Positions 7,310 to 33,809 of a stretch of DNA of 64,000 nucleotides are shown here, piece by piece. A program made the position numbers and the translations under genes. Under the pieces are notes generated by a model that was given only the letters and a program-made list of their open reading frames with translations, was not told the origin of the DNA and searched no databases. The stretch covers positions 1,786,501 through 1,850,500 of the forward strand of contig WHUZ01000007.1 of assembly GCA_015179045.1 (NCBI GenBank), in the 5' to 3' direction. Position 1 is the stretch's first letter. Every line of letters starts with the position of its first letter. This DNA comes from Kalaharituber pfeilii. Taxonomy: Eukaryota > Ascomycota > Pezizomycetes > Pezizales > Pezizaceae.

Positions 7310-8048
7310 TTCTCGAAAACAGAAAGAAATGGCTGCAGCTGAGCGAGCTACAAAAAAACACCATGGAGGAACTCACATGCGAGGCTGGGGCTGAGGAAGA
7401 TCTTTAGTTCATAAGATGGGAGGGTCTGAATACCAGAGGGGGGGTGGGTAGAAGGAGGTTCCAGCAGCAGATTTGAGCCACAGGTCTCTTCTGTTATACC
7501 TGACACCTCAGAAGGAGTTACTGTTACCACCCCTAGTGCTTTAACTACTACTACTTCAAGTCCCGGTATTCCTGAATCACCTGAGGAGTCCAGGAACACT
7601 GAAGATCAGTTAAGGTATAGAGATTAGCTCAGGAACATGAACTACTTCTATATATTTGAAGGTGCACTGCATCCTACATAATCTCTATATACAACTATTG
7701 ACTTTTAGTAAAAAGACCAGCACTGGATGGATAAGTATCACTGGTTTTCTGTATTATTTTCCTGATTTCGAGGACATTGAGCTATGCTATATACAGGAAG
7801 GGCTCAAATTAGGTGAATAATGATGAATTTGGTGGTAAATATTGAGATTTTGGTTTTTTCCTTAGTATGATGGCAAATTCTGATTCAGCGATGTCAAATT
7901 AGTATAATGTTGTGCAATTTCCTACGGTCGGAGGGTTGGTGCAACCAGACTAGCAATTTCCATAGTTACAATATATCCAAAATAGTAGTAGAGCGATGAT
8001 GAGGAGTGCCAAGAGAGTTGGGGCAGATCGTTACCATATTGGGCACGT
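7310..8048 (+). mobile_element. Single arm of a foldback element
   Basis: This stretch is closely similar, in the same orientation, to the right arm of the foldback element at 31931-33809 and inverted relative to its left arm. It ends at the same terminus (..GATCGTTACCATATTGGGCAC). The opposite arm is missing, so this is a deleted or solo arm. Its apparent 83-codon open frame recurs in the other arms only because the DNA is repeated. Confidence 0.75.
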
Positions 8049-16187: not shown

Positions 16188-16780
16188 ATAGTCTGGGTGT
16201 AGAGAACTGATAATCAAAGCGTGCACAATGATAAATTTTATGGAGGACGTTTGGTTTACGTATTAACTAGTCTACGTTTACAAACCAGACAATGTTTACA
16301 TTTAGTGTTTATATTAGTCTGTTGGGGTTAGCGGAAGGGCTTGTGCCAACCAGACTATGTTGGGGTTGCAACTAACAAAACTTAGAAGGCAACGGTGTGA
16401 CGCTAGTGCCACCCAAATAAAAAAAGTTTTATGCCAGACCTTCCTAGCGGAAGGGCTTGTGCCAACCAGACTACATCGCGGTAGTTCGGCGTGCTCATGC
16501 GTAGAACACGCGCACTGGCGCTAGGAGGCTTGCCAAGACCACCAAAGCGCGCGTTTGCGTTTTACCTCTTAAGTGAGTTAATACGGTATAGCTTTAAACT
16601 ACAGTCACTGGTCAAAAGTCTTGGTGAAACAGGTCTGAGCGCCTGATACAAGAGGCTGCAAAAATTCAAATATCTCAACAACGAAGTACCCGATTGACAT
16701 GAAATGAAAATTGGTGATAGTATACATGATGGAGAAATTTCTATGATACAGGAAAAAATTCTAGTACATGTGGTTGAGGT

Positions 16781-17118
16781 TCAGTACCTAGTATACCATC
16801 CCTTTGCATCTATTACAGCAGCGACCCGATCTGGCATACTTTTCCACAGATTCTCAAAGAGCGATGCAGGTAGAGAGTCCCAAACTTTAGGTAGTACTTC
16901 TGCTAACCTAGCTCTAACAGCATCAGATCCACCGGGAGTGTCGCTAATGTTAGGGTACTGTTCATGGAGTTTGCGCTTTAGAACCACCCAGACATGTTCG
17001 ATATCATAGGATTGAGATCGGGTGAGTAGGGTGGGTGTAAATCAATAGCAATTTTGTCCCGCTTGAAGAAAGCTTGAATAATCTTTGCTTTATGGATCGG
17101 TGCATTGTCTTGCTGTAA
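16781..17118 (-). pseudogene. Tc1/mariner transposase, C-terminal part
   Basis: On the minus strand the sequence begins abruptly at GLQQDNAPIHKAKIIQAFFK, the second catalytic Asp motif (QDNAP). It continues IDLHPPYSPDLNP and, after a small out-of-frame insertion near 17010, IEHVWVVLKRKLHEQYP, the third acidic motif (PIE.VW), ending AVIDAKGWYTRY and a stop. The frameshift and the missing N-terminal part make it non-functional. The N-terminal half lies at 31305-31798. Confidence 0.85.
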
Positions 17119-19639
17119 TCCATCCTTCTTCCACTGTGTCATCTATGTGTCTTCTCCACTCTGCCACCTCCGCGTCTCTGGTCAAGGTCGGTAGGATCAC
17201 TAAAGGCAATTCCCCCCCGTGTTGGAAGTTCCCTCTTAAGTACGTGCTCTCCGAGTCTTTTCTTCGTATCTCCTCTTCTTCGAACCGGAGTGCCCTTGCT
17301 TCTACCCGCTCAGCCTCAGCTCTCACGAAGGTCTCTATCGACTCCAAGTTCGCCAGGCCTTCAACGACCTCTCTTCTCGTCCCCCATGGCGCCCGAATTA
17401 TGCCTCGTGTGACAGTATATTGCCACTTCTCCAGGTCCCTTAGCTTTCGTTCTTTTGGAGCTCCGTGAGCGTAGTCGCTCCAGGCCCACGCCCCCCACGT
17501 CGCGATATTCCTGGCGATGCTTGTGTATAGCTGGCGCTGTTTCGCTGGGTGTAACTTTGTGAGTCTTGCTGCTGTCGCCCATGCCGCTTTGCCCAGTCTG
17601 AGTCTTTTCTGGTGGTGTTCGTCAAATTTCAGCTCCCAGTCTACATGTAATCCGACTAGCCTGTAGGTGGGACCCTTGAATCCGACAATGAGAGTCTCGG
17701 ACTTTCCCGGGTCTACCTGATATCCCTCCTCTGCCGCGTCTCTTTCCAGCAACCTTCGATGTTCTTTGATCTTTTTCCTTAGTCGGCTTATGTTGGAATC
17801 GGATATAATGCTATGAAAGTCATCGACATAGGAACGCGTGAAATTTCTTTCAGCCACCTTTTCCGCCACGGGGGCTATTGCTACCAAAAAAAGGACTGGG
17901 GATAAAGGAGAGCCCTGTGGAGTGCCATCTGTCATATGGTGCTGCGCACGTTTTTTGCCATCCCATATCATGTTGAACTTGCACGGTCTGAGAAAGGAAT
18001 CCACGAAAGCTGCCAGGTTTGGGCATGTGTGTTTCAGACGCTCCACCACCTTCCTTCTCCTAACAAAGTTGAAAGCCGATTTAATATCGTCACCCACCAT
18101 TGCTACCCATTTCCCTTCTTTGAGTCTCCGGTCTATCTCCTTTAGAGTCTGCCTCTGTAGGTCTTCCGCTCCTCTATGTGGTCTTCCACCAAGCTGCGTG
18201 TCATGAAAAAGGTGGTCCTGCCGCTGTATCATGTCTGCTACAACCTTCTGTCCCAATTTTGCTACCGTGTTTAGGAGTGTGATTGGTCTCCAACTCTCCG
18301 GTAGCTCCCTTGGCTTGTTCTTCTTTCGTATCATTACCACATCGAAGCCTCTCGCGAAGTCATATACTCCATTTATATATTCTACTATCCTTTCCCGCAG
18401 GCCCCAGTATAGAGTTGTACCCCGCAGTAGTTTCAATAATCCGTATTGGACCCCGTCTGGTCCTGGAGCCGACCGAGACTTCGTTTTGCTTAAGGCTCTA
18501 TCGATGGCATGCCTCGTCTCTTCCCTATCCAGAGTTATACCTTCTAGGCACAACGGAGTCTCCAGTTTCTCATCTGTATTTATGAAGTGTCTCTCCACTA
18601 AGGCGTCCGCTATCTCTTGGTCTGTGCCTGGAATGCCCATTAGATCGCGTTTCCGGAATGGGTCTCTTGCTATGCGAAAGATGTCCCATGGAGATGTTAT
18701 TCTGTCCTCTTCCAGGAAGTTCGCCCAATGCTGTTTTTTCTTTTCCCTTATTATGTCTCTCAGGAGCCGTCTCGCTTTGATTTTACTTTCGTAGTCGAAT
18801 CCATTCTGCTTGCGTAAAATGTACCTAGTCATTTTGCGAGCCTCCTTCACTTCCTTGTCGAACCACCTTTTGGACCTGTTGCTGATTCGTGCTTTCTTTG
18901 TGAACCGCGCTGTGAGGTCTCTTAATATCTCAGTACCTTCCGGAAGTGGTTTGTTGCCCCATTTTTCTACGTATTCCTCCCACCTCTCCCAGTCAGTTAC
19001 GGTTATAGTCCTAAATTGATTCATATCTGTGTCTTTCAAGTACCCATAGACCATCGCATGATCTGCCCCCGCAACCCATGTTAGCCCGCCAGTCTCCCAT
19101 TCTCCTCTCCTTGCGAAGACCAGGTCCAGCAGGGCTGTGCGTGTTTCTCCCTCTACCGTTCTTGTCCACGTCTTAGTCCTCTTATCTAGTTGCTGTTCTA
19201 GTCCTAGTGTCCTCATGTTGTCTCTTAGTATTCTTCCTCTTCCATCTTGTTTTGATGACCACTCCATATGGTGACTGTTGCAGTCTCCGATAAGTAGGTC
19301 TGTCATGCCGACCTTGTCTAGTTCCACCGTTATGTCTGTGTCCTTGTTCCAATATACTCCTGTTACCGTCCTTCCGTTGACCTTGACTGTCGCATGTCTC
19401 TCCCCTCCCTCCACTTTCACACTCCCTAATAGCTCCTTTCTGACATAGGCTGTTAAACCTCCCATTTTAGTTGGTCTATGAATCGTTATGAATGCCGGAT
19501 GGAAGGTTGTCCCTCCTCCTGGTGCCCTCCATGCCTCTCCAATAAATATAATATCAATCTCTCTGTCCGCTGCCTCCTGTAACGCTATATCCGTCCCCAC
19601 CACTGCCTTGCCCACATTTTGGTAGGCTATCCTTAACAT
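17090..19639 (-). CDS. LINE ORF2: endonuclease and reverse transcriptase
   Basis: An uninterrupted 849-codon frame. Residues 1-200 are an AP-type endonuclease (IAYQNVGKAV, FIGEAWRAP, LIGDCNSHH, ALLDLVFARR, GADHAMVYG). Residues about 390-620 are reverse transcriptase (RSAPGPDGVQYGLLKLL, PESWRPITLLNTVAKLGQKV, DGTPQGSPLSPVLFL, RSYVDDFHSI with the catalytic YVDD near residue 600). The RNase H domain expected next is absent. At about 17119 the frame runs out of LINE sequence (..DDTVEEGW) into mariner sequence and stops. The start codon overlaps the end of ORF1 (CTATGTTAA), suggesting coupled re-initiation. Frame integrity implies recent activity. Confidence 0.95.
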   Translation of the reverse strand: MLRIAYQNVGKAVVGTDIALQEAADREIDIIFIGEAWRAPGGGTTFHPAFITIHRPTKMGGLTAYVRKELLGSVKVEGGERHATVKVNGRTVTGVYWNKDTDITVELDKVGMTDLLIGDCNSHHMEWSSKQDGRGRILRDNMRTLGLEQQLDKRTKTWTRTVEGETRTALLDLVFARRGEWETGGLTWVAGADHAMVYGYLKDTDMNQFRTITVTDWERWEEYVEKWGNKPLPEGTEILRDLTARFTKKARISNRSKRWFDKEVKEARKMTRYILRKQNGFDYESKIKARRLLRDIIREKKKQHWANFLEEDRITSPWDIFRIARDPFRKRDLMGIPGTDQEIADALVERHFINTDEKLETPLCLEGITLDREETRHAIDRALSKTKSRSAPGPDGVQYGLLKLLRGTTLYWGLRERIVEYINGVYDFARGFDVVMIRKKNKPRELPESWRPITLLNTVAKLGQKVVADMIQRQDHLFHDTQLGGRPHRGAEDLQRQTLKEIDRRLKEGKWVAMVGDDIKSAFNFVRRRKVVERLKHTCPNLAAFVDSFLRPCKFNMIWDGKKRAQHHMTDGTPQGSPLSPVLFLVAIAPVAEKVAERNFTRSYVDDFHSIISDSNISRLRKKIKEHRRLLERDAAEEGYQVDPGKSETLIVGFKGPTYRLVGLHVDWELKFDEHHQKRLRLGKAAWATAARLTKLHPAKQRQLYTSIARNIATWGAWAWSDYAHGAPKERKLRDLEKWQYTVTRGIIRAPWGTRREVVEGLANLESIETFVRAEAERVEARALRFEEEEIRRKDSESTYLRGNFQHGGELPLVILPTLTRDAEVAEWRRHIDDTVEEGWITARQCTDP

Positions 19640-20058
19640 AGTGCCCTTCCCTTCCCTGGTGCCCCACGGGGACGAAAGTGTTGTTGTTCCTCAGTCTTTT
19701 TCGGAATCCAATTGGCCTTCTGAAGTGGCCTTCCACACAACGGGTGGTGGTTGTTGATCACTTTGCAGCATGGGCAGCTCTGCTTCCATCCTCCATTAAG
19801 GTTGACTACTTCTTCTGTCTCCCTTCTTCTTGGGGAGCTCTTCACCCAATCCGGTAGGTTGCGCTGCTTCGGGATCCATTCAATCACCTGTCCTACTTGG
19901 AAGTGCACACAATAGCCTTCCGAGTCAGTGTATCGATATCGTCGTGCCCTCCCTGAACTCTCCTTGCCAATATCTTCCCTTAGGTAGCACTTGAGTCTTC
20001 CTCCTCGAAACTTCAGCCCATCTCTCAACACTTCCACCACGTTATCAGCCACAAAGCC
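19633..20058 (-). CDS. LINE ORF1, 5'-truncated, with zinc-knuckle-like motif
   Basis: The open frame continues to the junction at about 20060 without an ATG, so the 5' end is lost. About 140 residues remain, including a basic region and CPCCKVINNHHPLCG, a Cys/His cluster resembling the nucleic-acid-binding knuckle of LINE ORF1 proteins. It ends one base after the ATG of ORF2. Immediately upstream lies an inverted piece of ORF2, so the 5' end is rearranged. Confidence 0.7.
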   Translation of the reverse strand, partial: GFVADNVVEVLRDGLKFRGGRLKCYLREDIGKESSGRARRYRYTDSEGYCVHFQVGQVIEWIPKQRNLPDWVKSSPRRRETEEVVNLNGGWKQSCPCCKVINNHHPLCGRPLQKANWIPKKTEEQQHFRPRGAPGKGRALC

Positions 20059-20060
20059 TT

Positions 20061-20190
20061 AGTGGAGAGACACTTCATAAATACAGATGAGAAACTGGAG
20101 ACTCCGTTGTGCCCAGAAGGTATAACTCTGGATAGGGAAGAGACGAGGCATGCCATCGATAGAGCCTTAAGCAAAACGAAGTCTCGGTCT
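20061..20190 (+). repeat. Inverted 130-bp copy of a LINE ORF2 segment
   Basis: The plus strand encodes LVERHFINTDEKLETPLCPEG and RHAIDRALSKTKSRS, essentially the reverse complement of 18472-18603 in ORF2, with one obvious base difference. It is joined head-on to truncated ORF1. A simple twin-priming inversion would give a segment from upstream of the break, not from ORF2, so a second event is needed. Confidence 0.85.
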
Positions 20191-20678
20191 ATATACCCAT
20201 AGATATCTACTCAAGTAGGCGTGCAGCGTGCCCTCCAGCTCCGCACTGTTGTCTTTTTTTCCTATCCGGATTTTTACGCGATATGTCCTGTCTCTAGCTA
20301 CGGCGAAGTGGCATTATTATACCCAAACATCATAGCCTATGCCATCGCTGCCACGGACCATTGGTAATAAACTCTTCCCCGAATAAGGTCGCGTAAGCGA
20401 GGTTCGGCTAACCCAAAAAAGGCCGCTTTGGGCGGGATTGCCGGAAACGACTAGTTTGGGCGGATAAACCCAATTTGGGAAACCAGTTGACCAGTGAATT
20501 GTAGCCACAGAAGGGTATAAAGAGGGCCGAAGAATCGGTAGATAAATGAATAGACCTCCCAAGATCACCCAACGAGTTTAAATAGAATATACTCTCTACT
20601 CTATATTTTTACAGAACCACGCCATAGACCCACGCCAGTAGGCAGTAGGGAGAAGAAGACGTCTACTTGAAGACCCAT
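20191..20678. other. Gene-free, possibly LTR-derived
   Basis: Contains a TATA-like GGGTATAAAGAGGG near 20514 and short TACTTGA-type motifs at both edges (about 20208 and 20669), which could be remains of an LTR. No partner copy was found, so this stays weak. Confidence 0.25.
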
Positions 20679-21290
20679 CTACACGGCGGATGAACGGAAC
20701 TTAAACACACGAATTATACATACATGAAACAGCATAACAGGATATACATGAGGATTGATAGACATGGAGGTCTTTAGCATATGAAGGCAGGTAACGTGGG
20801 TGGGGGCTCTAGCATGGCTTCCGTTTGCTCTTTGCAGTCGAAGTGGCCCTGGGGGTGGTGCTCTTTTCCTTTTGGGCAGGTTGGGCATGTGGAGCTCCCT
20901 TCTAAGCAACGCTGGGTGGGTGAGAGGGGCTATTATAAATGCCAATCTACAGTACAGTAGTTGAGGGTTAACAAAGTAGGCGCCGGAATGTAACCTTGCA
21001 GCTGTATTTTCAGAGGCCCGAAGAATATTTATCATATGGTCTCGTGAAACGAGATCACACTTTAACCAAAATTCCAGAGCATCTAAAGGGCCCCTGGAGG
21101 AATGATATTGATACTCTCGTAAAGCGCTGGAAGCGTGTTTGAACTCTATAGAATAGTAACTCCTGTAAAGATACTCGCAAAGTTCTGGGCTAAGAATTGC
21201 AAAACCCCTCGGGACAAGCACTTTCTGCCTGAATGCACACTGACCGCCTGCTCCACTATTAATCGCCTTATCGCTCCGTTTAGTTATCAT
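20679..21290 (-). CDS. Hypothetical protein, possibly a repeat-borne fragment
   Basis: A 203-codon frame from ATG at 21290. The N-terminal part SGAGGQCAFRQKVLVPRG is also found, nearly unchanged, on the opposite strand at 21475-21530, so it belongs to a duplicated family. The middle (ALEFWLKCDLVSRDHMINILRASENTAARLHSG) looks protein-like. The C-terminal third (KRKRAPPPGPLRLQRANGSHARAP) is basic and low-complexity. No domain is recognised. A decayed transposon gene is as likely as a cellular gene. Confidence 0.35.
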   Translation of the reverse strand: MITKRSDKAINSGAGGQCAFRQKVLVPRGFAILSPELCEYLYRSYYSIEFKHASSALREYQYHSSRGPLDALEFWLKCDLVSRDHMINILRASENTAARLHSGAYFVNPQLLYCRLAFIIAPLTHPALLRRELHMPNLPKRKRAPPPGPLRLQRANGSHARAPTHVTCLHMLKTSMSINPHVYPVMLFHVCIIRVFKFRSSAV

Positions 21291-21474
21291 TCTCTCTGTT
21301 GTTAAATGAAAATTCAATAGTGTAAATTACCCCATGGGGTAAAATCCGACCTTTTAAATTTTATGGTGTGAAAATTGCGTTTATTTCTAAGTGTGCCATG
21401 AACCTAAATGAGGCAATCCCAGGGTCAGCTCGGACTCAGACTAAGACCCAGGCTGAGAACAGGCGACCAGAAGT

Positions 21475-21555
21475 GGAGCAGGCGGTCAGTGTGCATTCAG
21501 GCAACAAGTGCCTGTCCCAAGAGGTATTGATTTTTCCGGTATGCTCTACAGTAGC
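21475..21555 (+). repeat. Inverted copy of the 5' part of the neighbouring gene
   Basis: The plus strand encodes SGAGGQCAFRQQVPVPRG, the counterpart of SGAGGQCAFRQKVLVPRG on the minus strand at about 21257-21205. The two copies face away from each other across roughly 220 bases. The frame is closed by a stop just upstream. Confidence 0.6.
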
Positions 21556-21571
21556 GTAATACTACATAGTA

Positions 21572-22195
21572 GTGGTTGTCACTGAATAATTGAGAATGGT
21601 TACCAGAAGTTACCAGGAAAAAGACGCCAACCAAACTAGGCAGGAACCGTGAGGTACCCCTTTTAACCCTGCGAAAATTATTAGTTAGTAAAATGAATTA
21701 CCACGACTAAACGCCCTACACATCTACGCATGTAAAAGCTATCATGATGCTCATGGTTCTTGATTCAGATGCAGACTCCAACTCAGATTTGGAGGAAATG
21801 GCCAAAGATACACTTCTTATGTCAATACAATGTTTTAGGGTGAATTGACACATAAAGAAGACATAAATATGAATAGGATATGTTTGCATTGTTTGTGGTT
21901 GTAGATGCATGCTGAAGGTTGATGCGAATCGAGATGTGTACGCGGATGCTGCATATGGTGCGAAATGTTGTGGGTGCATGCAGCAAAGTAGGTTACTAAC
22001 TGAGCTCTACTTACCAGAAAAGCCATTTACCAGTCGATTTCGACTGGTAAAAGAACTTATGCTGGTAAGTTGCGCCACCACCCAATGGGCCAATGAACGA
22101 AGGGGCCAAGGCACTAAAAACGCCTCAGTCAAGTATAGTTAAGTAAAGTAAAGTGTGGTACCGGTAACCATTCTCAATTATTCAGTGACAACCAC
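21572..22195. mobile_element. 624-bp MITE with perfect 33-bp TIRs and TA duplication
   Basis: Begins GTGGTTGTCACTGAATAATT, identical for 33 bases to the reverse complement of its right end, each next to TA (21570-21571 and 22196-22197). The TA target fits Tc1/mariner mobilisation. The inside is non-coding and holds a perfect 12-bp-arm hairpin TTTACCAGTCGA/TCGACTGGTAAA near 22026-22051. Identical TIRs suggest a young insertion. Confidence 0.85.
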
Positions 22196-22421
22196 TAGTA
22201 TTTACTGTACAGTATTCTCCTGCACTACTCATGCTTGGGCCACCTTCCGAGCCTCACACTTCAGCTTCCCCACACCAGAATCTGACTTTGCCGTACCGGA
22301 TTTCCGCAGCCTACTATAAGTACAACAATCTGAGTAAGCAGGGAAGCATACTGTAGCAAGAAATGAAAACTGTGTGGGGCTCGGAGCTGTGCTCAGCTCT
22401 TCGTGTTGGCTGTACCACCTA

Positions 22422-24252
22422 CTGTCGCTTACCTATTAGTGACCGAGCACCTATTAGTGACCGATCTCTTGGCACTCCTCCTCGTACAACTTCTACATGC
22501 AATATCTTCGGCTTCAGGCATGCTAGCAACATGAGGTAAATTGCAGAATATACAGCAGGTGCACCTGAATATTTGGAGGTTATTTGATAGCCATACTATA
22601 TATACATCTTTTGTAATTCAATGATATGGAGAGAAAGTATAGCATTCTACCCCCCCCTTACATAGCAAAGAATAGCATACCCTAAATATTACATGACTCT
22701 CCTCGACTATAGCTTTTCACACTCTCAAGTGGCTATAGAAGAAGATAGCTAACTTAAATGGTGATAGGATAAGGCTGCTCTGAATTTCGGTAGCCTCAAA
22801 GCAGCCACTAAAATGGCCGAAAATGCCGGAAGTGCCAAAACTTCCAATATACTCTTCTATTACTTGCAACAAGCAACTACATATACTAAAAATAACAGGA
22901 TTAATAGTTATAAGACTACTCTTATGATTACGATAGTATGTAATATAATTGGGAGTGTTGGCTACTAGGAAAACATCCTCAAGAATAGTATAGTATATTT
23001 CAGGACTGATAGTATTAATTGCTAGGAAAAATACTCTTATGAGTGCGACAGCCTCTAGTAGGATAATAGGATTGGTAGACCGGATAGGTATCTATACCAA
23101 CGATAGTATATAGCTGCAGAATTAGCTGGTATAGAAGTACCCTGACGGCTATAATAGCATATATCTAACTGATAGGATTAGTTGATGAAATGAACTTCTT
23201 ACTATATCAACATTGATAGCATATACCATAGTTGATAGAGGAGGTAAGAATAATAGTATTACTACCATGTACATCTATAAAGAATGATATAGGGAGCAAT
23301 ACTAACAAAAATTTAGTATTTCTTATAGTAATATAATAAGCGGAATTGTATCTGGATATATACTATCCTATAATGACCTCCTAGGTATAATTAGCTGCAA
23401 GAACTTCTGTCAGGGTGGTTACTGTCTTGTTATAGGTTCACCACAACCATACGGTGGGCAGTCAGTGGATGCATATATGCAAGTCATATATGAGCTGACA
23501 ATACTAGCGATGATGCTGGTGACAGTGCCGGCGCTGGCATCGCAGTCACATAAATGAGTACTATATGAGCTACGCAGAGGACTAGCATATGTAGAGCACT
23601 CAGGACAAGGTCTATAGAAAGTAATGGTACTCTGATATTGAAGTAGCAGCAATTGGTATAAATTTGTGCTTGCTGATAGAATATAGCAATTAAAGAATTA
23701 GTTCATCATATATCTACTACTTTAGTTATATAAAGCACTATTGATTATATCAAGAGCATAGAAATGCTGCTTTTAGAGTGGTATATTGGTTGCAGTGGAG
23801 TATATTATGTGTGTAGCAGGACATACTAGCAGCTTTAGCACTTCCGGCACTTTCAGATATTTTGGTAACTGCTTTTGAGGCTACAGAAATTCACAGCGAC
23901 TTATCCTACCATCATTTAGGTGAGCCACCCTTCTTCTATAGTCACTTGAGAGTACGAAGAGCTATAGTTGAGGATAGTCATATAGTATTTAGTATATGCT
24001 ATCCTTTGCTATGCAAGGGGGGGGTAGAATGCTATACTTTCTCTGCATATCATTGAATTACAAAAGGTGTATATATAGTGTGGCCATCAAATATCCTCCA
24101 AATGTTTAGGCATGCCTGCTGTATATTCTGCAATTTACCTCATGTTGCTAGCATGCCTGACGCTGAAGATATTGCATGTGGAAGTTGTACGAGGAGGAGT
24201 GCCAAGAAATCGGTCACTAATAGGTGCTCGGTCACTAATAGGTAAGCGACAG
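22422..24252. mobile_element. 1.83-kb foldback element with about 430-bp arms
   Basis: Ends CTGTCGCTTACC.../...GGTAAGCGACAG, next to TA on both sides (22420-22421, 24253-24254). Each end has two tandem copies of a 17-18-base unit ACCTATTAGTGACCGA. The arms match inward to about 22865 and 23825, leaving an AT-rich loop of about 1 kb with no coding potential. A conserved GAGGAGTGCCAAGA block near each end is shared with the foldback element at 31931-33809, so the two families are related. Confidence 0.85.
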
Positions 24253-24466
24253 TACCGGTATGTGCTTGCCAATGATTGGTTGATCAGCCTTGCTGGCGGA
24301 GCCGCATACAAATCACAGCCTCTGAAAATAAATGCGGAGAGAGAGGGAATCATCAATCTTTGACGCTGCTCACAACTCCAAAGTCAAAAAGGAAGACTCC
24401 GTACGTAGGCTCTCGTCGTTCTAATCTCTCATCATTCTGTGTGATAATTCTGTGATAAGACAAAAA

Positions 24467-27400
24467 ATGAATAATCAGCGATCGGGAAGCCCAGGAGGAA
24501 GCGGGCAAAAACGTAGTGTTCAGTAAGTTTACGGAAAGTAGCGATGCTCTTTCTTCGCTTAGGCTAACTTCCGCTACTTGATAGTCACTTATCTAGACCG
24601 AAATCTCCTGACAGAAAGCGGAGTCGGAGTACTGATCCCCCACCACCTAGTAGCTCTCTGCTTGTCACCCTCCAAACAACCGCACAAACAATTCCTCCAC
24701 AGGGAAGAGCGAGCTTAATTACTAGTCCCGTAACACGACCGCAATCAGGTTCGCAATTAGTGGGCAATGTCCCAGCATCCAGTTCAACACCTCAAAATCC
24801 TGGACAGAATTTACTGAGCAACCCAACGCGAGATCAGATCGAAGGTGTAATTAAGGATTTACGGACTGTTCATACTGAGAGTAAAGAGAAGCAATGGAAA
24901 TACACCAACAGGCATGGCGAGCGTGTGGCTGTAGTGGATCGCATAGGACCAATCCTGAAATGCATGGAGAGTTATGCAAATATTGTTGATGTAGCAATAC
25001 AGCATAACCCGACTATCACTGCTCTTGTTTGGGCTAGTGTTAGATTTATTTTGAAGGTGGGTTATAAAGTTCTTGCATTCATACATGGAGATTAATCATG
25101 GTAATAGATTGCACTCAACTATGTACAATTGATGGAAAGTCTGGAATTTGCAGTAGCAACCATTGTCAATACGATGGCAAAGTGCGAATTCTATGCCTAT
25201 ATCTACATGAACACATCGCTGGAGGTTGCATTGGAGCTTGGTTCGACAAGGGATGCTTTCAAACAAAGATTAGAGTACGCTCTGGCAGAACTCTACGATT
25301 CAATCCAGAAATTTACAGACAAAGTAAAAAAACATTTTCAGACAACATCATGTAAGATATTCGATTCCTTTTGGGGCCACCCCGTATTCTGCTAAACAAG
25401 AACTTTCAAATTTTAGGCATAAGGCAGATTGGAAATATGTTCAAGCCTTTTTCAGAAGTGATCCAACCATACCTTGATGAGATATCTAAGAAAAAAAAGG
25501 TTGTCCGAGATTGCGCAGATGAGGCTGGAATGAAAAGGATTATGGGTACGCATACAACTGACATTCAAGTCTTGCATAAATATTTTTTACTAATAAGAAC
25601 AGAGAATTCTGAGAAGCTTAAGCAAATGGAGAGGGTCTTGAATGACATAAAGAAGGAAATGGAGCCTTTATTAAGGCTAGATGGTGAGTGCAATGAAATT
25701 ATTTTCATTCATAAGGAAACGTGACGCTAATTGTCAAAAATGAAAATAGAAATCTATACAACTGTGAAGCAGAACCTTGCTATGTCCAAAGAGATCAACG
25801 AGAAGTTATCTACATTTAGTATGTTTAGTATGCACACCTATTCACAGATCATTTGCTAATGAAAAAATTAGTATTGGATCAACGAGAAACAATTGTTTGG
25901 AAAACTTTAGATGCAGATTTTGCGCAGCTTAAAAAGGACTATCTAGGTAAAAATCAGTTGGAGGTGTTCGAGTTTGATCTATATATTCCGGCAGAAGGAA
26001 TGACACATCCACATGACAGCAAGCGCTTTGATCTCCTAGAGGCAATTCAACAATTTCTATCGGACACCGTACAACAGATTTGCTTGATTCAAGGTACTGC
26101 TGGGTCTGGAAAATCAACATTCAACCATCATCTTGCACGCTATCTATGGACTGAGTACGACAAAGCCTCCAATCAAGCAACTGCAGTGGTTCCCATATTC
26201 ATCTCACTCTTTAGAATATATACATCAGGAACCCACCGAGATCTGATAGCTGCTTTCTTTGCTAAACAAGGTTTTCATCCAGACCAAATAGAGCTAGTTC
26301 GGCGTCAACGGCAGTTCGTATTTATCTTGGATGGCTATGATGAGATTGAGAGACAGGACCGAAATTTTTTTACAGCAAACGAGCTTGACTCATGGAAAGC
26401 TAAAGCTATCATTACTAGTCGACCAGAATATTTGCCCTCAGGGTATCAGAGCAAGTTTTATCCCCTCGGTCAACCGCAGCTATTTCAAGAATACTACCTT
26501 GCTCCATTTTCGAAGTCAAACATCCGGAAGTATATTTCGCAATACGTAAGGACTAGGCCTGGCTACTCAATCGAGGAGTACGAACGGTATATACTGAGTC
26601 CCGATGTGTCTGCGTTAATCAACAACCCTTTTCTCCTCAAAATGACTATGACTGTGAGGCCTCAAGGCAATGGCAAACTCAAGCGTGGGGATTTATACGA
26701 ACAGTTCATTGATTATTGGCTAAACCAGGCGCATGTCCGTTTGAATAATATTCAACTACCGAAAACTCAGTGTGATGCATACAGGCAGTTAGAAGACATG
26801 GATTTCAATCTCCAAGCACGACGCTTTTGTCAACAATTTGCACTAGCTCTGTATCGTCATCAGGTACTAGAAGCAACCTATGCACCCATTGGCATTTTCT
26901 CCAATTCTACACTACAGGGTCAGTCGGTCTGGGAAAAATTTTTAGCAAATAATGAAAAAATGCGGATTTTGCGCCTTAGTTCGCCACTTATCCGACAGGG
27001 GAATTCATACCGATTTTTACACAAGTCACTACGGGATTATTTGGTAGCCGAAGTAATTTTGGAGGATGAGGCATTCAAAGGGTGTAAAGCTAATGCACTA
27101 ATCAATGAGTTTCATCTTGTTGATGATCCCGGTGTTCTTGATTTCATTGTCGAAAAAGCATGGCAATTGCATGACTATTTTTTGACCTTGATTGAGCGAT
27201 CCAAAACTGATGCAAATTTCTCAACAGCATCTGCAAATGCAGTTACAATTCTAGTTAGAGCAGGAAAGAGCTTTGCAGGTCATGATTTGCGTGGCATACG
27301 CATTCCTAGAGCAGATATAAGTCATGGCTTCTTTGGGCGAGCTCAATTGCAAAATGCAGACTTATGTGAGGTTCGTACATATGTAATCAACAAAAACTCG

Positions 27401-29497
27401 TCGTTACTTATATAATTAGCTAATGGTATAGAGCAGATTCGTATGCATCAAACCTGGCTTGAGAAGGCAGACCTAAGTAAAGCTAGCATGAATAATGTAT
27501 CGTTTGGCGAAAGACCTTTTATGCAACTACCAGCATCTTCACGGAGTGTCGCCTTCTCTCCTGACGGCCAGCTGCTTGCCTCTGGCAGTGCTGATTGCAC
27601 TATACGCCTGTGGTCAGTCCTACGTCATGAAGCCATGCATACCTTTGAGGGTCATAGCGGGTCGGTAAATGGTGTCGCCTTCTCTCCTGACGGCCAGCTG
27701 CTTGCCTCTGGCAGTGCTGATTGCACTATTCGCCTGTGGTCAGTCCTACGTCATGAAGCCATACATACCTTTGAGGGTCATAGCGGGTCGGTAAATGGTG
27801 TCGCCTTCTCTCCTGACGGCCAGCTGCTTGCCTCTAGCAGTCGTGATTGCACTATACGCCTGTGGTCAGTCCTACGTCATGAAACCATGCATACCTTTGA
27901 GGGTCATAGCGGGTCGGTAGAGAGTGTCGCCTTCTCTCCTGACGGCCAGCTGCTTGCCTCTAGCAGTCGTGATTGCACTATACGCCTGTGGTCAGTCCTA
28001 CGCCATGAAACCATGCATACCTTTGAGGGTCATAGCGGGTCGGTAGAGAGTGTCGCCTTCTCTCCTGACGGCCAGCTGCTTGCCTCTGGCAGTCGTGATT
28101 GCACTATACGCCTGTGGTCAGTCCTACGTCATGAAGCCATGCATACCTTTGAGGGTCATAGCGAGTGGGTACAGAGTGTCGCCTTCTCTCCTGACGGCCA
28201 GCTGCTTGCCTCTGGCAGTGCTGATTGCACTATACGCCTGTGGTCAGTCCTACGTCATGAAGCCATGCATACCTTTGAGGGTCATAGCGGGTGGGTAGAG
28301 AGTGTCGCCTTCTCTCCTGACGGCCAGCTGCTTGCCTCTAGCAGTCGTGATTGCACTATACGCCTGTGGTCAGTCCTACGTCATGAAGCCATGCATACCT
28401 TTGAGGGTCATAGCGAGTGGGTACTGAGTGTCGCCTTCTCTCCTGACGGCCAGCTGCTTGCCTCTAGCAGTGGTGATCGCACTATACGCCTGTGGTCAGT
28501 CCTACGTCATGAAGCCATGCATACCTTTGAGGGTCATAGCGGGACGGTAAATGGTGTCGCCTTCTCTCCTGACGGCCAGCTGCTTGCCTCTAGCAGTGGT
28601 GATTGCACTATACGCCTGTGGTCAGTCCTACGTCATGAAACCATGCATACCTTTGAGGGTCATAGCAGGTCGGTAAAGAGTGTCGCCTTCTCTCCTGACG
28701 GCCAGCTGCTTGCCTCTGGCAGTGGTGATTGCACTATACGCCTGTGGTCAGTCCTACGTCATGAAACCATGCATACCTTTGAGGGTCATAGCGGGTCGGT
28801 ACAGAGTGTCGCCTTCTCTCCTGACGGCCAGCTGCTTGCCTCTGGCAGTGGTGATCGCACTATACGCCTGTGGTCAGTCCTACGTCATGAAACCATGCAT
28901 ACCTTTGAGGGTCATAGCGAGTGGGTACTGAGTGTCGCCTTCTCTCCTGACGGCCAGCTGCTTGCCTCTGGCAGTGATGATTGCACTATACGCCTGTGGT
29001 CAGTCCTACGTCATGAAGCCGTGCATACCTTTGAGGGTCATAGCGATTGGGTACTGAGTGTCGCCTTCTCTCCTGACGGCCAGCTGCTTGCCTCTAGCAG
29101 TCGTGATTGCACTATACGCCTGTGGTCAGTCCTACGTCATGAAACCGTGTATACCTTTGAGGGTCATAGCGATTCGGTACTGAGTGACGCCTTCTCTCCT
29201 GACGGCCAGCTGCTTGCCTCTGGCAGTGGTGATTGCACTATACTGTGGTCAGTCCTACGTCATGAAACCATGCATACCTTTGAGGGTCATAGCGAGTGGG
29301 TACATACCTCGGAAATCACCTGCGAGTGGGTACATACCTCGGAAATCACCTGTGTTTGTGTATGGGCAGTGCCCCAAAACAAACTCAACCTCACGAATGT
29401 AAACATTCAGGATGTGATCGGGCTCGACTCACTCAATTTTCGCCTGCTTGAACAACATAGAGCGGTTGGAAAGCCTGTACTTACTAAGAGTAAGTGA
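24467..29497 (+). CDS. NACHT-WD40 STAND receptor (NLR-like), seven exons
   Basis: My model joins 24467-24522, 24585-25056, 25108-25351, 25417-25683, 25750-25818, 25872-27370 and 27437-29497: 1,555 residues, all phases compatible, with CTAAC/CTAAT/CTAAA-type branch sites near most acceptors. The fifth intron end (25871, rather than 25847) and the sixth donor (27371 or 27366) are the least certain. The N-terminus is Ser/Pro/Arg-rich, then a helical fungal STAND N-domain of DUF7708 type (DRIGPILKCMESYANIVDVAIQ..ALVWASVRFIL). NACHT: P-loop GTAGSGKS near residue 444, Walker B FVFILDGYDEIE near 525, TSRPEY sensor-like motif. A short pentapeptide-like stretch (ADISHG, AQLQNADL, LEKADLSKA) links to 14 WD40 units. 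Fungal proteins of this plan detect non-self and can trigger cell death. The whole gene lies between LINE halves inside a mariner element. Confidence 0.9.
27550..29311 (+). repeat. Fourteen tandem 126-bp WD40-encoding units
   Basis: The block GCCTTCTCTCCTGACGGCC recurs every 126 bp from 27550 to 29188, giving 42-residue WD40 units (VAFSPDGQLLAS..D.TIRLWSVLRHE..HTFEGHS..V). Units differ at only a few codons. The last unit has lost one codon (CTILWS instead of CTIRLWS). Confidence 0.97.
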
Positions 29498-29965
29498 AGT
29501 TGATGAAGGTGCTATTGGTTGTAGGTGCCTTGAAACACCGCCCGGGGCCCATCCTTTCTTGTGGATTCTAGCCCCCTTTATATAGCCTCATCGAGCGTGG
29601 CGTTATTTCTTCCTGCTTATGATATCTTTATTTGCTTAACAATCATTGATTATACTATCGCTGTGGTTTGCCATTCGGTGGCACCGAGTCAGGGCCCGCC
29701 CTGCTATAGCGAACAGCGGTAAACGGTTACGTAACTTAAGAATATCTGTCCCGCAACTTATGATCTTGTTGCACCGCCTCATTGACATCATGCTAGCAAA
29801 TTCCTATTATTATCTCATGCTATGATGAACGCGACCCAGCCTGTTTTCCTATTTTTGGGGTATTGAAGTGGCGAAGTGGTAAGAGCTTGGGTTTAATTGT
29901 TTATGATATTGTGGAAAAAAGGCGATCTTTTACAAAACAAGTAGCTATGTGATTTTTTCCTGATT
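29498..29965. other. Gene-free stretch with retroposon traces
   Basis: Near 29698 a diverged copy of the micro-retroposon body (CGCCCTGCTATAGCGAACAGC) lacks a poly-A tail. At about 29868 AGTGGCGAAGTGGTAAGAGC resembles a tRNA A box, but no B box follows at the right distance, so no tRNA is called. Confidence 0.4.
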
Positions 29966-30142
29966 TTGTTTACCCGCCAAAGGCGAAAGAGAGGTGTAGA
30001 GTTGAAGATCTATCACGTCATTTTCCTTCCCTTTAATTTGTCTTACCATTTATCTTCCATTTTACTTTTTCCTCTCGTTTTATCTCACCATAGCACATAG
30101 GGCAGCACGCAAATAATGATATAAAAGAAAAAAAAAAAAAAA
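29966..30142 (+). mobile_element. SINE-like insertion with LINE-type tail
   Basis: The tail CACCATAGCACATAGGGCAGCACGC..AATGATATAAAAG plus poly-A is a diverged form of the shared LINE tail. Imperfect repeats of TTTTCCTGA flank it (about 29955-29965 and 30143-30152). Confidence 0.55.
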
Positions 30143-30396
30143 ATTTTCCTGACTTATATTTGTATTTCCTTGATTTCAATTGCTCTTCTAGATAGTCCTC
30201 AAAAAGGCAAAATATATGACCTTGCAGTTAGTTTAGACACCTACCATCGAAAGGTCTTTGCGGAAACCATGGCTAGCTCTCTACCCGGCCCTAGGTATAA
30301 TAGCTATGATAATGACCGACCCCCGAGGGAAAAGAGTGGGGTCGATGTCATATTCCTTTTCATCTTTGGATCACGTAACCCCGCATACAGGCTACC

Positions 30397-30400
30397 AACC

Positions 30401-30439
<39 letters not shown>

Positions 30440-31304
30440 TCATTTATCGCTTACCGCCCTGTGGGCTATGGCGATGTGTTAGGTACATGTGATCAACAGG
30501 AACTAAATGAGATAGAGAAAATAAAATACTGGCACACTGAAATGTAACTGAAGTCACCCTCCGTCCTCTTCCATCATCTCCATCAGCCCCTGTAGTGGGT
30601 CACCTTCTCCTTCCCTGCACTTTGGGGGTTTTATTATTGCTGCCATGCCCCCGGGCCATTTCTTCTGCCACACTCTACACCCCTCCAGTAAATGTCCGGT
30701 GGTCTCCTCCGCCTCCCCGCACCACCTACACCCTGGGTCTGTCGCCTCCCCTATGTGATGTCTCCATGCGCGTAGTCCCTTCGCCCCCAACAGTCCCGCT
30801 AGTCTCGATACTCGCGCGCCGAGTCTCTCCAGAGGTCGGTATGTCAGACCCAGTCTATTCCTTTCTCGTGCTCTCTCTCGCTTTGCCTCCTGTCTTATCC
30901 CCGCTTCTGTCACCACCTCTGCCGCGCATTGTAGCGCTGTCCCTATTCTCGCTGCCTCATCTGCTGCTTCATTTCCTGGTATACTTTTGTGACTTTTCAC
31001 CCACATCACAGCCATGTCTAGGTCTCCCCTATCCAGTCGCCTTTTCCAGGCTTCCCTGAGTCTCCTCGTCGCCCCGTCTGGTGTTGGGAGTCCCTTTGCT
31101 ATTGCTGACATCCTGGATATCGCGAACTTGGAATCTGTGATGATGAGTAGCTCTCCTTCCATCCTTTCTGCAGCCTCGCTGATCGCATATATCTCCGCAT
31201 CGTTGACAGTAGCCTGGGCTCCCAGATATATCGAATCCGTCTCTCCTCCGATTGATATACCTGCTCCGGCCTTCTCTCCGATCATGCTACCGTCTGTGTA
31301 TCAT
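30397..31304 (-). pseudogene. LINE 3' part: RNase H, 3' UTR, tail
   Basis: On the minus strand it starts abruptly at YTDGSMIGEKAGAGI, the first catalytic motif of RNase H. It continues NDAEIYAISEAAERM, LIITDSKFAISRM, AVMWVKSHKSIPGNEAADEAARIG, then a C-terminal CRWCGEAEETTGHLLEGC zinc-type motif, ending EMMEEDGG and a stop at 30554. The 3' UTR closes with CATCGCCATAGCCCACAGGGCGGTAAGCGAT, ATGATAT and a 35-base poly-A. The missing endonuclease/RT part is what lies at 17119-20060. The two together make one complete LINE in permuted order. Confidence 0.9.
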
Positions 31305-31798
31305 TTGCCGAGATTCTTCCGATTTCTCCACACTGCATTCATCACTCCAATTGTTGATTGGAAGTCTTCTACTGTCCAATCCTTGCGTTCTAGTGCCCAT
31401 TGGAGTCTTGCCGCAGCTCGTTCGGTCGTTAATTTTGGTCGTTTCTTGGCCAATCACTTGTGCAAGCCGAATTCATCTAGGTAGCGACTAATGGTCCGTA
31501 AGGACACATGAGGGCAGCATACTTCTTGAACTTCCTTGCGTGGAGCTGCTTTATGCGTTCTAACATATCGCCAAATATGCCGCCGCTCTCTTCTGTCCAA
31601 TTTAGGGGGTCTGCCGCTTCGAGGGAGGTTTTCATCGGTTTGCCGAATTTCACGTCGTACAATGAAATTTTTGATAGTTGACCAAGGACGTCCAACTACG
31701 CGGCTAATTAAACTAATTTTGAAATCTAAATAGAGAAGGGCAATTATCATACCCTTTTCTTTGTTGGTCATCTCTCGTCGGGTCGTTTTGGGCGGCAT
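31305..31798 (-). pseudogene. Tc1/mariner transposase, N-terminal part
   Basis: Starts MPPKTTRREMTNKEKGMI, a helix-turn-helix DNA-binding region (ISRVVGRPWSTIKNFI, RSGRPPKLDRRERRHI, RTISRYLDEFGLHK). After an in-frame TGA where Trp is expected it goes on LAKKRPKLTTERAAARLQWALERKDWTVEDF. A one-base loss near the first acidic motif puts SDECSVEKSEESR out of frame; with that allowed for, the first catalytic Asp is visible. It then passes into LINE sequence at about 31305. The C-terminal part is at 16781-17118; the segment between the first and second Asp motifs is missing. Confidence 0.85.
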
Positions 31799-31930
31799 GG
31801 TGGTTGCTACAGTACAAAATAACAACCGCGTTGTTGTTTTCATCACGTGCGCTCGGACCTTTTCACCAAGACTTTTGACCAGTGACTGTATTGCTTAAGT
31901 AATACATCTGCCAAGACCTGAGTCCCTAAT

Positions 31931-33809
31931 GTGCCCGAAGTGGTAACGATCTGGCCCCCTGTAACGATCCATTCTCTGGGCACTCCTCGTCATACATTCC
32001 TCGTTCTACTACTTATTTTGGATATATTGCAACTATAGAAATTGCTTAACATTATACCAATTTGACATCGCTGAATCAGAATTTGCTATCATAATGAGGA
32101 AAAAATCAAAATTCCAATATTTACAACTAAATTCATTATTATTTACCTAATTTGAGCTCTCCCTGTGTATTGTATAGCTCAACATCCTCGAAATCAGAAA
32201 AATAATATAGAAAACTAGTAATTCTCATCCATCTAGGGCTGGTCTTTTTATTAAAAGTCAACAATTGCATATACAGATCATGAGGGATGCAATGCACCTT
32301 TAATTGTATAGAAGTAGTTTATGTTCCTGAGCTAATCTCCATACCTTGATCTGACTTTGAGTGTTCCTAGACTCCTCAAGTAATTCAGGAATACCGGGAC
32401 TTGATGTAGTAGTAGTTGAAGCACTAGAGGTGGTAACAGTACCTCCTTCTGAGGTGCCAGGTATGACAGAAGAGATCTGTGGCTCAAATCTGCTGCCGGA
32501 ACCTTCTTCTACCCACCCCCCTTCTAGTATTCAGACCTTCCTATCTCATGAACTAAAGATCTTCCCCAGCCTTAGTCTCACATGTGAGTTCCTCCATAGT
32601 ATCTTTTTGTAGTTTGCTCAGCTGCAGCCATCTCTCTCTATTTTCGTTCTTCTTTTGCCTTACTTTCCCTCTGTCATGAGTCATCTCGAGTGGCCGATAG
32701 AGCGTACATGCGACACATGCGAAATGCGACAGCAAATATATGGGCATATTGCTAAATGAGCTATGCAGAAGACTAGTAAACGTCACTAGTCAAGTGTTTT
32801 TTCACTGATCTGGTGGGATACGGACCATGCGGTTCTCTACGCCCAAGACGCCCAAGACATTATATTCACTCACTTCCTCCTATACCGCCTCGAGCTGAAG
32901 TTAAGGTAATACTGGAACTAGAAGGAAAAAAATAGTAGAAGATGTCGAAAAGGAAACAGAGAGCACCAGCGAAGGTCAGAAAGGAGGAAGAGAAACTCCA
33001 GAAGGTGCGAAAATAGTTTAGGATAAGAAAGAAGCTGCTGATATGTAAAGTAGTTAGTAGTGATGGAGCAAGAAAGTAAGGCAAAAGAGGAACGAAAACA
33101 GAGAAAGATAGCTGCAGCTGAACAAGCACAAAAAGACACTATAGGGGAACTCACATGCAAGGCTGGGGCAGGGAAAGATCTTTAGTTCATGAGATAGGAG
33201 GGTCTGAATACTGGAGGGGGGGGTAGGTAGAAGAAGGTTCCAGTAGCAGATTTGAGCCACAGATCTCTTCTGTCATACCTGGCACCTCAGAAGGAGTTAC
33301 TGTTACCACCTCTAGTGCTTCAACTACTACTACTTCAAGTCCCGGTATTCCTGAATTACTTGAGGAGTCTAGGAACACTCAAAGTCAGATCAAGGTATGG
33401 AGATTAGCTCAGGAACATAAACTACTTCTATACAATTGAAGGTGCACTGTATCCCACATGATCTGTATATGCAATTGTTGACTTTTAATAAAAAGACCAG
33501 CCCTAGATGGATGAGAATTACTAGTTTTCTATATTATTTTTCTGATTTCGAGAATGTTGAGCTATACTATATACAGGGAGAGCTCAAATTAGGTAAACAA
33601 TAATGAATTTAGTTGTAAATATTGGAATTTTGATTTTTTCCTCATTATGATAGCAAATTCTGATTCAGCGATGTCAAATTGGTATAATGTTAAGCAATTT
33701 CTATAGTTGCAATATATTCAAATAAAAGTAGTAGAGTGAGGAATGCATGACGAGGAGTGCCCAGAAAGTGGATCGTTACAGGGGGGCAGATCGTTACCAC
33801 ATCGGGCAC
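31931..33809. mobile_element. 1.88-kb foldback element with about 740-bp arms
   Basis: The left end GTGCCCGAAGTGGTAACGAT and the right end match as inverted repeats, with few mismatches over 40 bases. The arms stay alignable to about 32673 and 33062, leaving a loop of about 390 bp. Each end carries the motif GATCGTTAC twice in direct orientation. The same arm occurs alone at 7310-8048. Target duplication is not clear (TA lies two bases outside both ends). Open frames in the arms repeat because the DNA repeats; no transposase is present. Confidence 0.85.

Follow-up and report, generated by a model that had tools for sequence, protein, structure and literature searches.

How does a whole receptor locus come to lie inside a DNA transposon, between the two halves of one long interspersed element (LINE) that stand there in permuted order? 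The question is raised by a 64,000-nucleotide stretch of the genome of Kalaharituber pfeilii, here called the window (bases 1786501-1850500 of contig C328, which is 1.96 Mb long, in an assembly of 78.0 Mb and 360 contigs). Its genes and elements, NACHT-WD40, ALG10-like, LINEs with RNase H and Tc1-like transposons, look fungal. Read on the minus strand, a 15.3-kb block in it runs from a terminal inverted repeat (TIR) and the N part of a transposase gene through the RNase H region, 3′ end and poly-A tail of the LINE to a region with a NACHT-WD40 receptor-like gene, and from there through open reading frames (ORFs) 1 and 2 of the LINE to the C part of the transposase and a second TIR. An earlier note on this DNA had given that order, with TIRs at both ends and TA outside each; all of this is present as it claimed, and the permuted arrangement that it described is confirmed, exact to the base. 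The receptor gene does lie between the LINE halves, where the note had placed it, but the distance is about 10.2 kb, two transposon insertions included, and not about 11 kb. Two segments matter for what follows: c, the DNA at the 5′ end of the LINE, and d, the DNA at its 3′ end, which holds the receptor gene. The answer that we consider probable is that the LINE and the receptor region together formed a circle, with d|c as its closing join, which opened within the LINE and was inserted in a Tc1-like element.

The split LINE and its insertion site

With endonuclease and reverse transcriptase domains in one long frame (17090-19690, minus strand), an RNase H domain in another (30554-31300) and a poly-A tail, the element belongs with the LINEs that have RNase H. 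It is broken at 17111 (possibly up to 17115) and at 31301; the location just before RNase H had been recognized earlier, but the positions then given, about 17119 and about 31304, were slightly off. In all nine close LINE copies that were fetched (L021-L029) the two breakpoints fall on one base, with no gap and an overlap of at most 1 bp: query base 2945 (17111) and query base 1 (31301) land on the same base in every one of them, within a sequence that is near-invariant across the break (in the copy at C319:119603, for example, that base is the shared end for both junction queries). The LINE is thus circularly permuted without loss, and the expectation that its two ends would prove adjacent in intact relatives was justified. 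Two independent LINE breakpoints would fall within 1 bp of each other with a chance of about 3/3,842, by simple arithmetic on the 3,842 bp of LINE present. That the halves derive from one element, as had been supposed, also stands: both match a single subfamily, mostly at 98-99% and at the lowest 93% (L029), and against L027 they are 99.2% (1,666 bp) and 99.4% (890 bp) identical. ‘Nearly complete’, as the LINE had been called, it is not, being 5′-truncated inside ORF1.

At junction 1 the LINE and the transposon have in common CAGCA, five exact bases within a 9/10 match (GATTACAGCA / GATTTCAGCA), so that the transposon can supply the single overlapping LINE base; at junction 2 they have 0 bases in common. 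Genome queries, with all candidates scored, found junction 1 crossed by none of 37 other matches and junction 2 by none of 33 (counts of repeat matches are lower bounds).

Where did the LINE sit before it was split? Segments c and d are directly consecutive at C328:1611603-1612633 and 1612639-1613680, which match window 21268-20186 and 30403-29333, and the same adjacency is found at C328:1958693/1958699, C268:373662/373668 and C344:8774/8780 and, with small gaps, on C297. At all five of the other recognized boundaries c thus adjoins d and the LINE site is empty (CTGCC), the window being the only filled one of the six. Two of the empty sites, the C328 copies (L056 and L058), were checked base by base and read GGGTATATAGACC-CTGCC-ATAGGTTGG; the other three were checked by coordinates and pattern. 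A pattern search returned the five empty sites of the family and the single filled one in the window, together with two 3-mismatch hits outside the family, and many further receptor relatives match within the gene only, without the c-d boundary. Compared with the empty sites, the LINE insertion has removed 5 bp (CTGCC) and has no target-site duplication (TSD); small target deletions are known for LINEs, for which reason the missing duplication is not taken as excluding one.

Since c and d adjoin in the five empty sites, the donor order must have been c-LINE-d. That of the window is LINE3′-d-c-LINE5′, with c and d at opposite ends of the block. A circle predicts just this, namely that the target flanks of the LINE, once adjacent, should come to stand at opposite block ends, and set against the five empty sites they do. 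The earlier proposal of capture via a circular intermediate, opened inside the LINE and put into the transposon, draws its support from these sites and from the zero-gap break.

The 5′ end of the LINE has a peculiarity of its own. A 134-bp segment stands inverted there, and the same element retains it at its normal position, about 1.5 kb downstream; it therefore reflects a duplication-inversion and not a simple 5′ inversion. The join of the inverted copy to the target shares GACC.

The host transposon and its gap

The TIRs of the host element end at 16602 and 31888, and 16600-16647 pairs with 31890-31842 at 92%. Three close relatives (L030-L032) are each 1,341 bp long, with uninterrupted transposase frames of 352 amino acids in L030 and 367 in L031 and an interrupted frame in L032; the N part in the window is 98.8% identical to L030. 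The L031 protein matches DDE_3, HTH_Tnp_Tc3_2 and the Sleeping Beauty transposase (SB100X), and it has 34 residues from the second D to the E, a spacing that is read from the family, the window copy being broken. On these domains and this spacing the earlier name ‘mariner’ gives way to Tc1-like and DD34E, which we take to be the appropriate class names as against mariner in the strict sense.

In the window the N part of the transposase stops right past the first catalytic motif and the C part restarts at the second. By comparison with all three close copies 226 bp are absent between them (up to 236 bp when the shared bases are given to the LINE), a single deletion, in keeping with the earlier view that a small piece of the host element had been lost between these motifs. 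Both transposon parts are matched at twelve places in the genome queries; in 11 of these the aligned parts stand 217-242 bp apart, in the remaining one (C112) 4.8 kb, and in none of the 12 is the window deletion found. (L033, with the N part only, and L034-L035, pieces at 85-91%, stand outside the count of three close copies, and one-part matches outside that of 11 in 12.)

What events would give such a locus? At one of the NACHT-WD40 loci the LINE would have retrotransposed into the boundary of c and d, with 5′ truncation and the small inverted duplication. Then c-LINE-d (about 11.7 kb, the two transposon insertions not counted) would have been released as a circle, the far ends of d and c being joined. 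A single break in the LINE, immediately upstream of the RNase H coding region and with no base lost, would have opened the circle. The resulting linear molecule may have been inserted at a gap of about 226-236 bp in the Tc1-like transposon, blunt on one side and at CAGCA on the other, the gap being perhaps a break, possibly from failed gap repair following the excision of the transposon itself, that was sealed by end joining. Such a combination of internal loss and captured DNA is like the abortive gap repair that is known to follow excision in P and Tc1/mariner elements. We infer the circular state, the order of the events and the repair of the gap as a break by end joining; a circle opening in the LINE and entering a gapped transposon would account together for three odd joins (transposon|LINE, d|c and LINE|transposon) and for the split of the LINE. 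The marks of a circular insertion, a permuted source order, an opening at one point without loss and a novel closing junction, are all found at this locus.

The transposase in the window being broken, any movement of the 15.3-kb unit would need transposase from another copy, and such movement in trans may be possible. The junctions of the unit were found only once in the genome queries, which gives no sign of movement since it was formed.

The proposed closing join and the alternatives

The d|c join lies at about 22206/21548. On its d side the window follows the closest paralog, which stands at the end of C328, to about 22370; there the paralog departs (its contig ends 85 bp on). The last ~170 bp of d (22374-22206) match C57 at 81%, with two short 76% matches given by C38, and beyond the d end C57 continues into DNA absent from the window. 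On the c side agreement reaches 21548 in L060 (perhaps about 22205 with gaps), 21531 in L063 and 21526 in L064, and in all three (C328:1956300, C297:140600 and C328:1610700) another flank, common to them, precedes c; in L060 this flank is the 5′ part of an ALG10-like gene (PF04922), which suggests a joint duplication of that gene and the receptor. The d|c join is absent from the four other matches to the d end (all candidates scored) and from the c copies among the matches listed (40 of 163 candidates scored). It is thus a novel junction, blurred by the 81% support for the d end and by a miniature inverted-repeat transposable element (MITE) within the closing zone.

This MITE has the TSD ACT/ACT. 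Eight other copies, chosen from 75 genome hits of the MITE terminal sequence, all have identical TSDs of the form ANT, which is ACT in five of the eight. The second insertion, a 1,835-bp transposon in d, is absent at this point from both the closest paralog and C57; it is abundant, with inverted repeats of about 430 bp, and at C35 one copy lies inside a MITE copy (L043). Two copies of the receptor block (L061 and L062, at C268:372342 and C344:6174) start elsewhere in c and have other flanks; such differing starts and flanks hint at repeated movement of the block with different ends. Identity to the closest paralog is 98.3% for d (2,510/2,553 aligned bases, 24985-27541) and 98.6% for c (720/730, 20366-21105), values that, with those of the LINE parts against L027 and of the transposon N part against L030, would fit if LINE insertion and circle came after the receptor copies had split, without amounting to a dating.

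Several points weigh against a circle. As the end of d is matched well by C57 alone, and at 81%, the exact place of closure is fixed less securely than the transposon junctions. The MITE in the closing zone is an unexplained coincidence; it could have taken part in circle formation. Of two distant LINE relatives that match both sides of the break (81-83%, by coordinates only), the one at C201:94683-94864 fits contiguity, and the one on C12 has 879 bp between its two pieces. The genome pattern search gave no donor whose c-LINE-d site is filled, and no scar locus was reached through the outer flanks, the c-side flank being still with c in 3/3 copies and the C57 flank being single; nor was an empty site for the whole transposon found among the 40 of 589 candidates that were scored. 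Reassembly from two fragments, too, yields an identical sequence. This is the strongest rival: the donor would have shattered, once in the LINE and at its outer ends, and c-LINE 5′ and LINE 3′-d would have been ligated in swapped order with no circle at all. Its breaks and joins are those supposed for a circle, one LINE break equally gives a permutation with zero loss, and by our own count two of the eight possible two-piece arrangements resemble a circular permutation. It must suppose, however, that two pieces were captured together in the right order and orientation, without a third piece or an inversion, where a ring is one molecule, and we regard it as unlikely.

The other explanations fare less well. 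Could the joins be an assembly artefact, with reads from different loci of repeat families fused at junction 1, junction 2 or d|c? Related copies of every part do exist at other loci of the genome. What misleads assemblers, however, is long stretches of identical sequence, and here 0 bases are shared at junction 2, five at junction 1 and no long homology at d|c; misassembly is therefore improbable, and a contig the size of C328 in this assembly suggests long reads. Template switching, of the kind seen in microhomology-mediated break-induced replication, would have run from the transposon to the donor LINE, to d, to c, to the LINE and back to the transposon. The microhomology CAGCA at junction 1 would suit it, the donor copies can stay in place, and the closest paralog is on the same contig, about 140 kb off; but two independent switch points in the LINE must then coincide to the base (again about 3/3,842), with no microhomology at junction 2, and we think it more improbable still. 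That the LINE parts are insertions unrelated to each other, that the transposon parts are likewise unrelated remnants, and that both pairs flank the receptor by chance, is scarcely credible: LINEs and Tc1-like copies are indeed common here, eight of the nine fetched LINE copies cover only part of the window LINE 5′ portion, and a one-element origin of the transposon parts is not proved by an empty site, but the LINE parts are complementary to the base, the transposon parts are complementary too, and five paralogs join 20186 to 30403 at empty LINE sites. For the circle itself, recombination between two MITE copies is a possible way of formation; the normal ACT/ACT duplication of the MITE favours plain insertion, a weak test given that ACT is the commonest form.

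Other candidates were tried and rejected. In ordinary target-primed reverse transcription of the LINE into the transposon the LINE 3′ end should adjoin the transposon C part, which it does not; had a circle entered by homologous recombination with a LINE fragment already resident there, another LINE 3′ end would be expected in front of the C part, and none is present; and a single cross-over at CAGCA would retain the 226 bp.

Table 1. Coordinates of the parts of the block in the window
Feature	Position	Strand	Remarks
TA outside left TIR	16600..16601		
Tc1-like C-terminal part and outer TIR	16602..17115	minus	17111-17115 assignable to either element; matches L030-L032
Junction 1	17111..17115	minus	CAGCA common to LINE and Tc1-like element
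LINE 5′ portion	17111..20055	minus	end of ORF1 and endonuclease-reverse transcriptase ORF2; stops just short of RNase H
Inverted LINE copy, 134 bp	20056..20189	plus	copy of LINE 18471-18604, 99% identical
Segment c	20190..21548	minus	LINE 5′ target flank; adjoins 30403 in paralogous loci
d|c zone (inferred circle-closure join)	21549..22206	minus	about 30 bp without the MITE and its TSD
MITE, 626 bp	21571..22196	minus	3-bp TSD ACT; inside closure zone
Distal end of segment d	22207..22419	minus	first 45 bp as in closest paralog
Transposon, 1,835 bp	22420..24254		long terminal inverted repeats
Segment d	24255..30403	minus	receptor gene and LINE 3′ target flank
NACHT-WD40 receptor-like gene	24568..29497	plus	several open frames
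LINE 3′ portion	30404..31301	minus	RNase H, 3′ untranslated region, poly-A tail ~30404-30437
Junction 2	31301..31302	minus	blunt join of Tc1-like element (31302) to LINE (31301)
Tc1-like TIR and transposase N-terminal part	31302..31888	minus	reaches just past first catalytic motif; frame there shifted
TA outside right TIR	31889..31890		

Beside the right TIR lies an inverted pair of a 739-bp repeat (window 31931-32667 / 33072-33809, 94%), of which a third copy is at 7314-7921.

The receptor gene, known systems and meaning

The gene carried in the block has a NACHT NTPase domain in the frame 25829-27415 followed by WD40 repeats in 27416-29497, and so belongs to the fungal NACHT-WD40 receptor-like genes, presumably of the class called NLR/HNWD-type. 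These two frames and the open frames 25108-25395 and 25356-25724 are all matched by frames in the paralog, of the same length except for the WD40 frame, which has 714 amino acids there as against 693 here, and the move left all of them uninterrupted. Fourteen near-identical 126-bp WD40 units occupy 27546-29302; over 24985-29302 identity to the paralog is 95.6%, the WD40 repeats being the less similar part. Near-identical units and a frame length differing from that of the paralog are as under concerted evolution. In having NACHT and then highly similar WD40 repeats the gene is like other fungal NACHT-WD40 genes, and in itself it shows nothing unusual; its location is what is unusual.

How does the locus compare with known systems? 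Serial translocation via circular intermediates at KIT reportedly underlies colour sidedness in cattle, and there too a chromosomal segment moved with a circularly permuted internal order, pointing to a circle opened at the new place. At KIT, however, hundreds of kb joined a chromosome, whereas here about 12 kb would have been opened in a LINE and inserted inside a DNA transposon that kept both TIRs. Gene clusters of wine yeasts are likewise said to have spread via extrachromosomal circles, again fungal genes inserted in permuted orders with circles as the explanation, but there several permutations of one horizontally acquired cluster are involved, and here a single insertion, in a transposon. 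Gene capture by DNA transposons is familiar from Pack-MULEs and Helitrons, as is internal deletion with filler via abortive gap repair from P and Tc1/mariner elements, and the likeness lies in foreign DNA between intact terminal repeats with an internal part of the transposase lost. In contrast to those cases the cargo here consists of a LINE and an entire multi-exon locus, permuted in a way that points to a circular source.

Taken singly, circular intermediates, permuted insertions and gene capture by transposons are already known; what appears new is their combination in one locus. To our knowledge circles have often been proposed as vehicles of gene movement, with evidence that usually ends at the free circle or at large rearrangements. 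Here a single locus still shows how the source was ordered, where a circle would have closed and opened, and where it landed, mostly at base resolution. One may go further and suppose that abortive repair of Tc1-like excision gaps captures circles, thereby yielding TIR-bounded receptor units, mobile in trans, and that NLR-type genes have spread through the genome in this way, though this is a long shot. The transposon in which the block lies has kept both its ends, and the block would be a readable record of how such an element can swallow a gene, step by step. It links LINE insertion, circle formation and gene capture by a DNA transposon, which are usually studied apart, in a genome where the receptor family has many copies.

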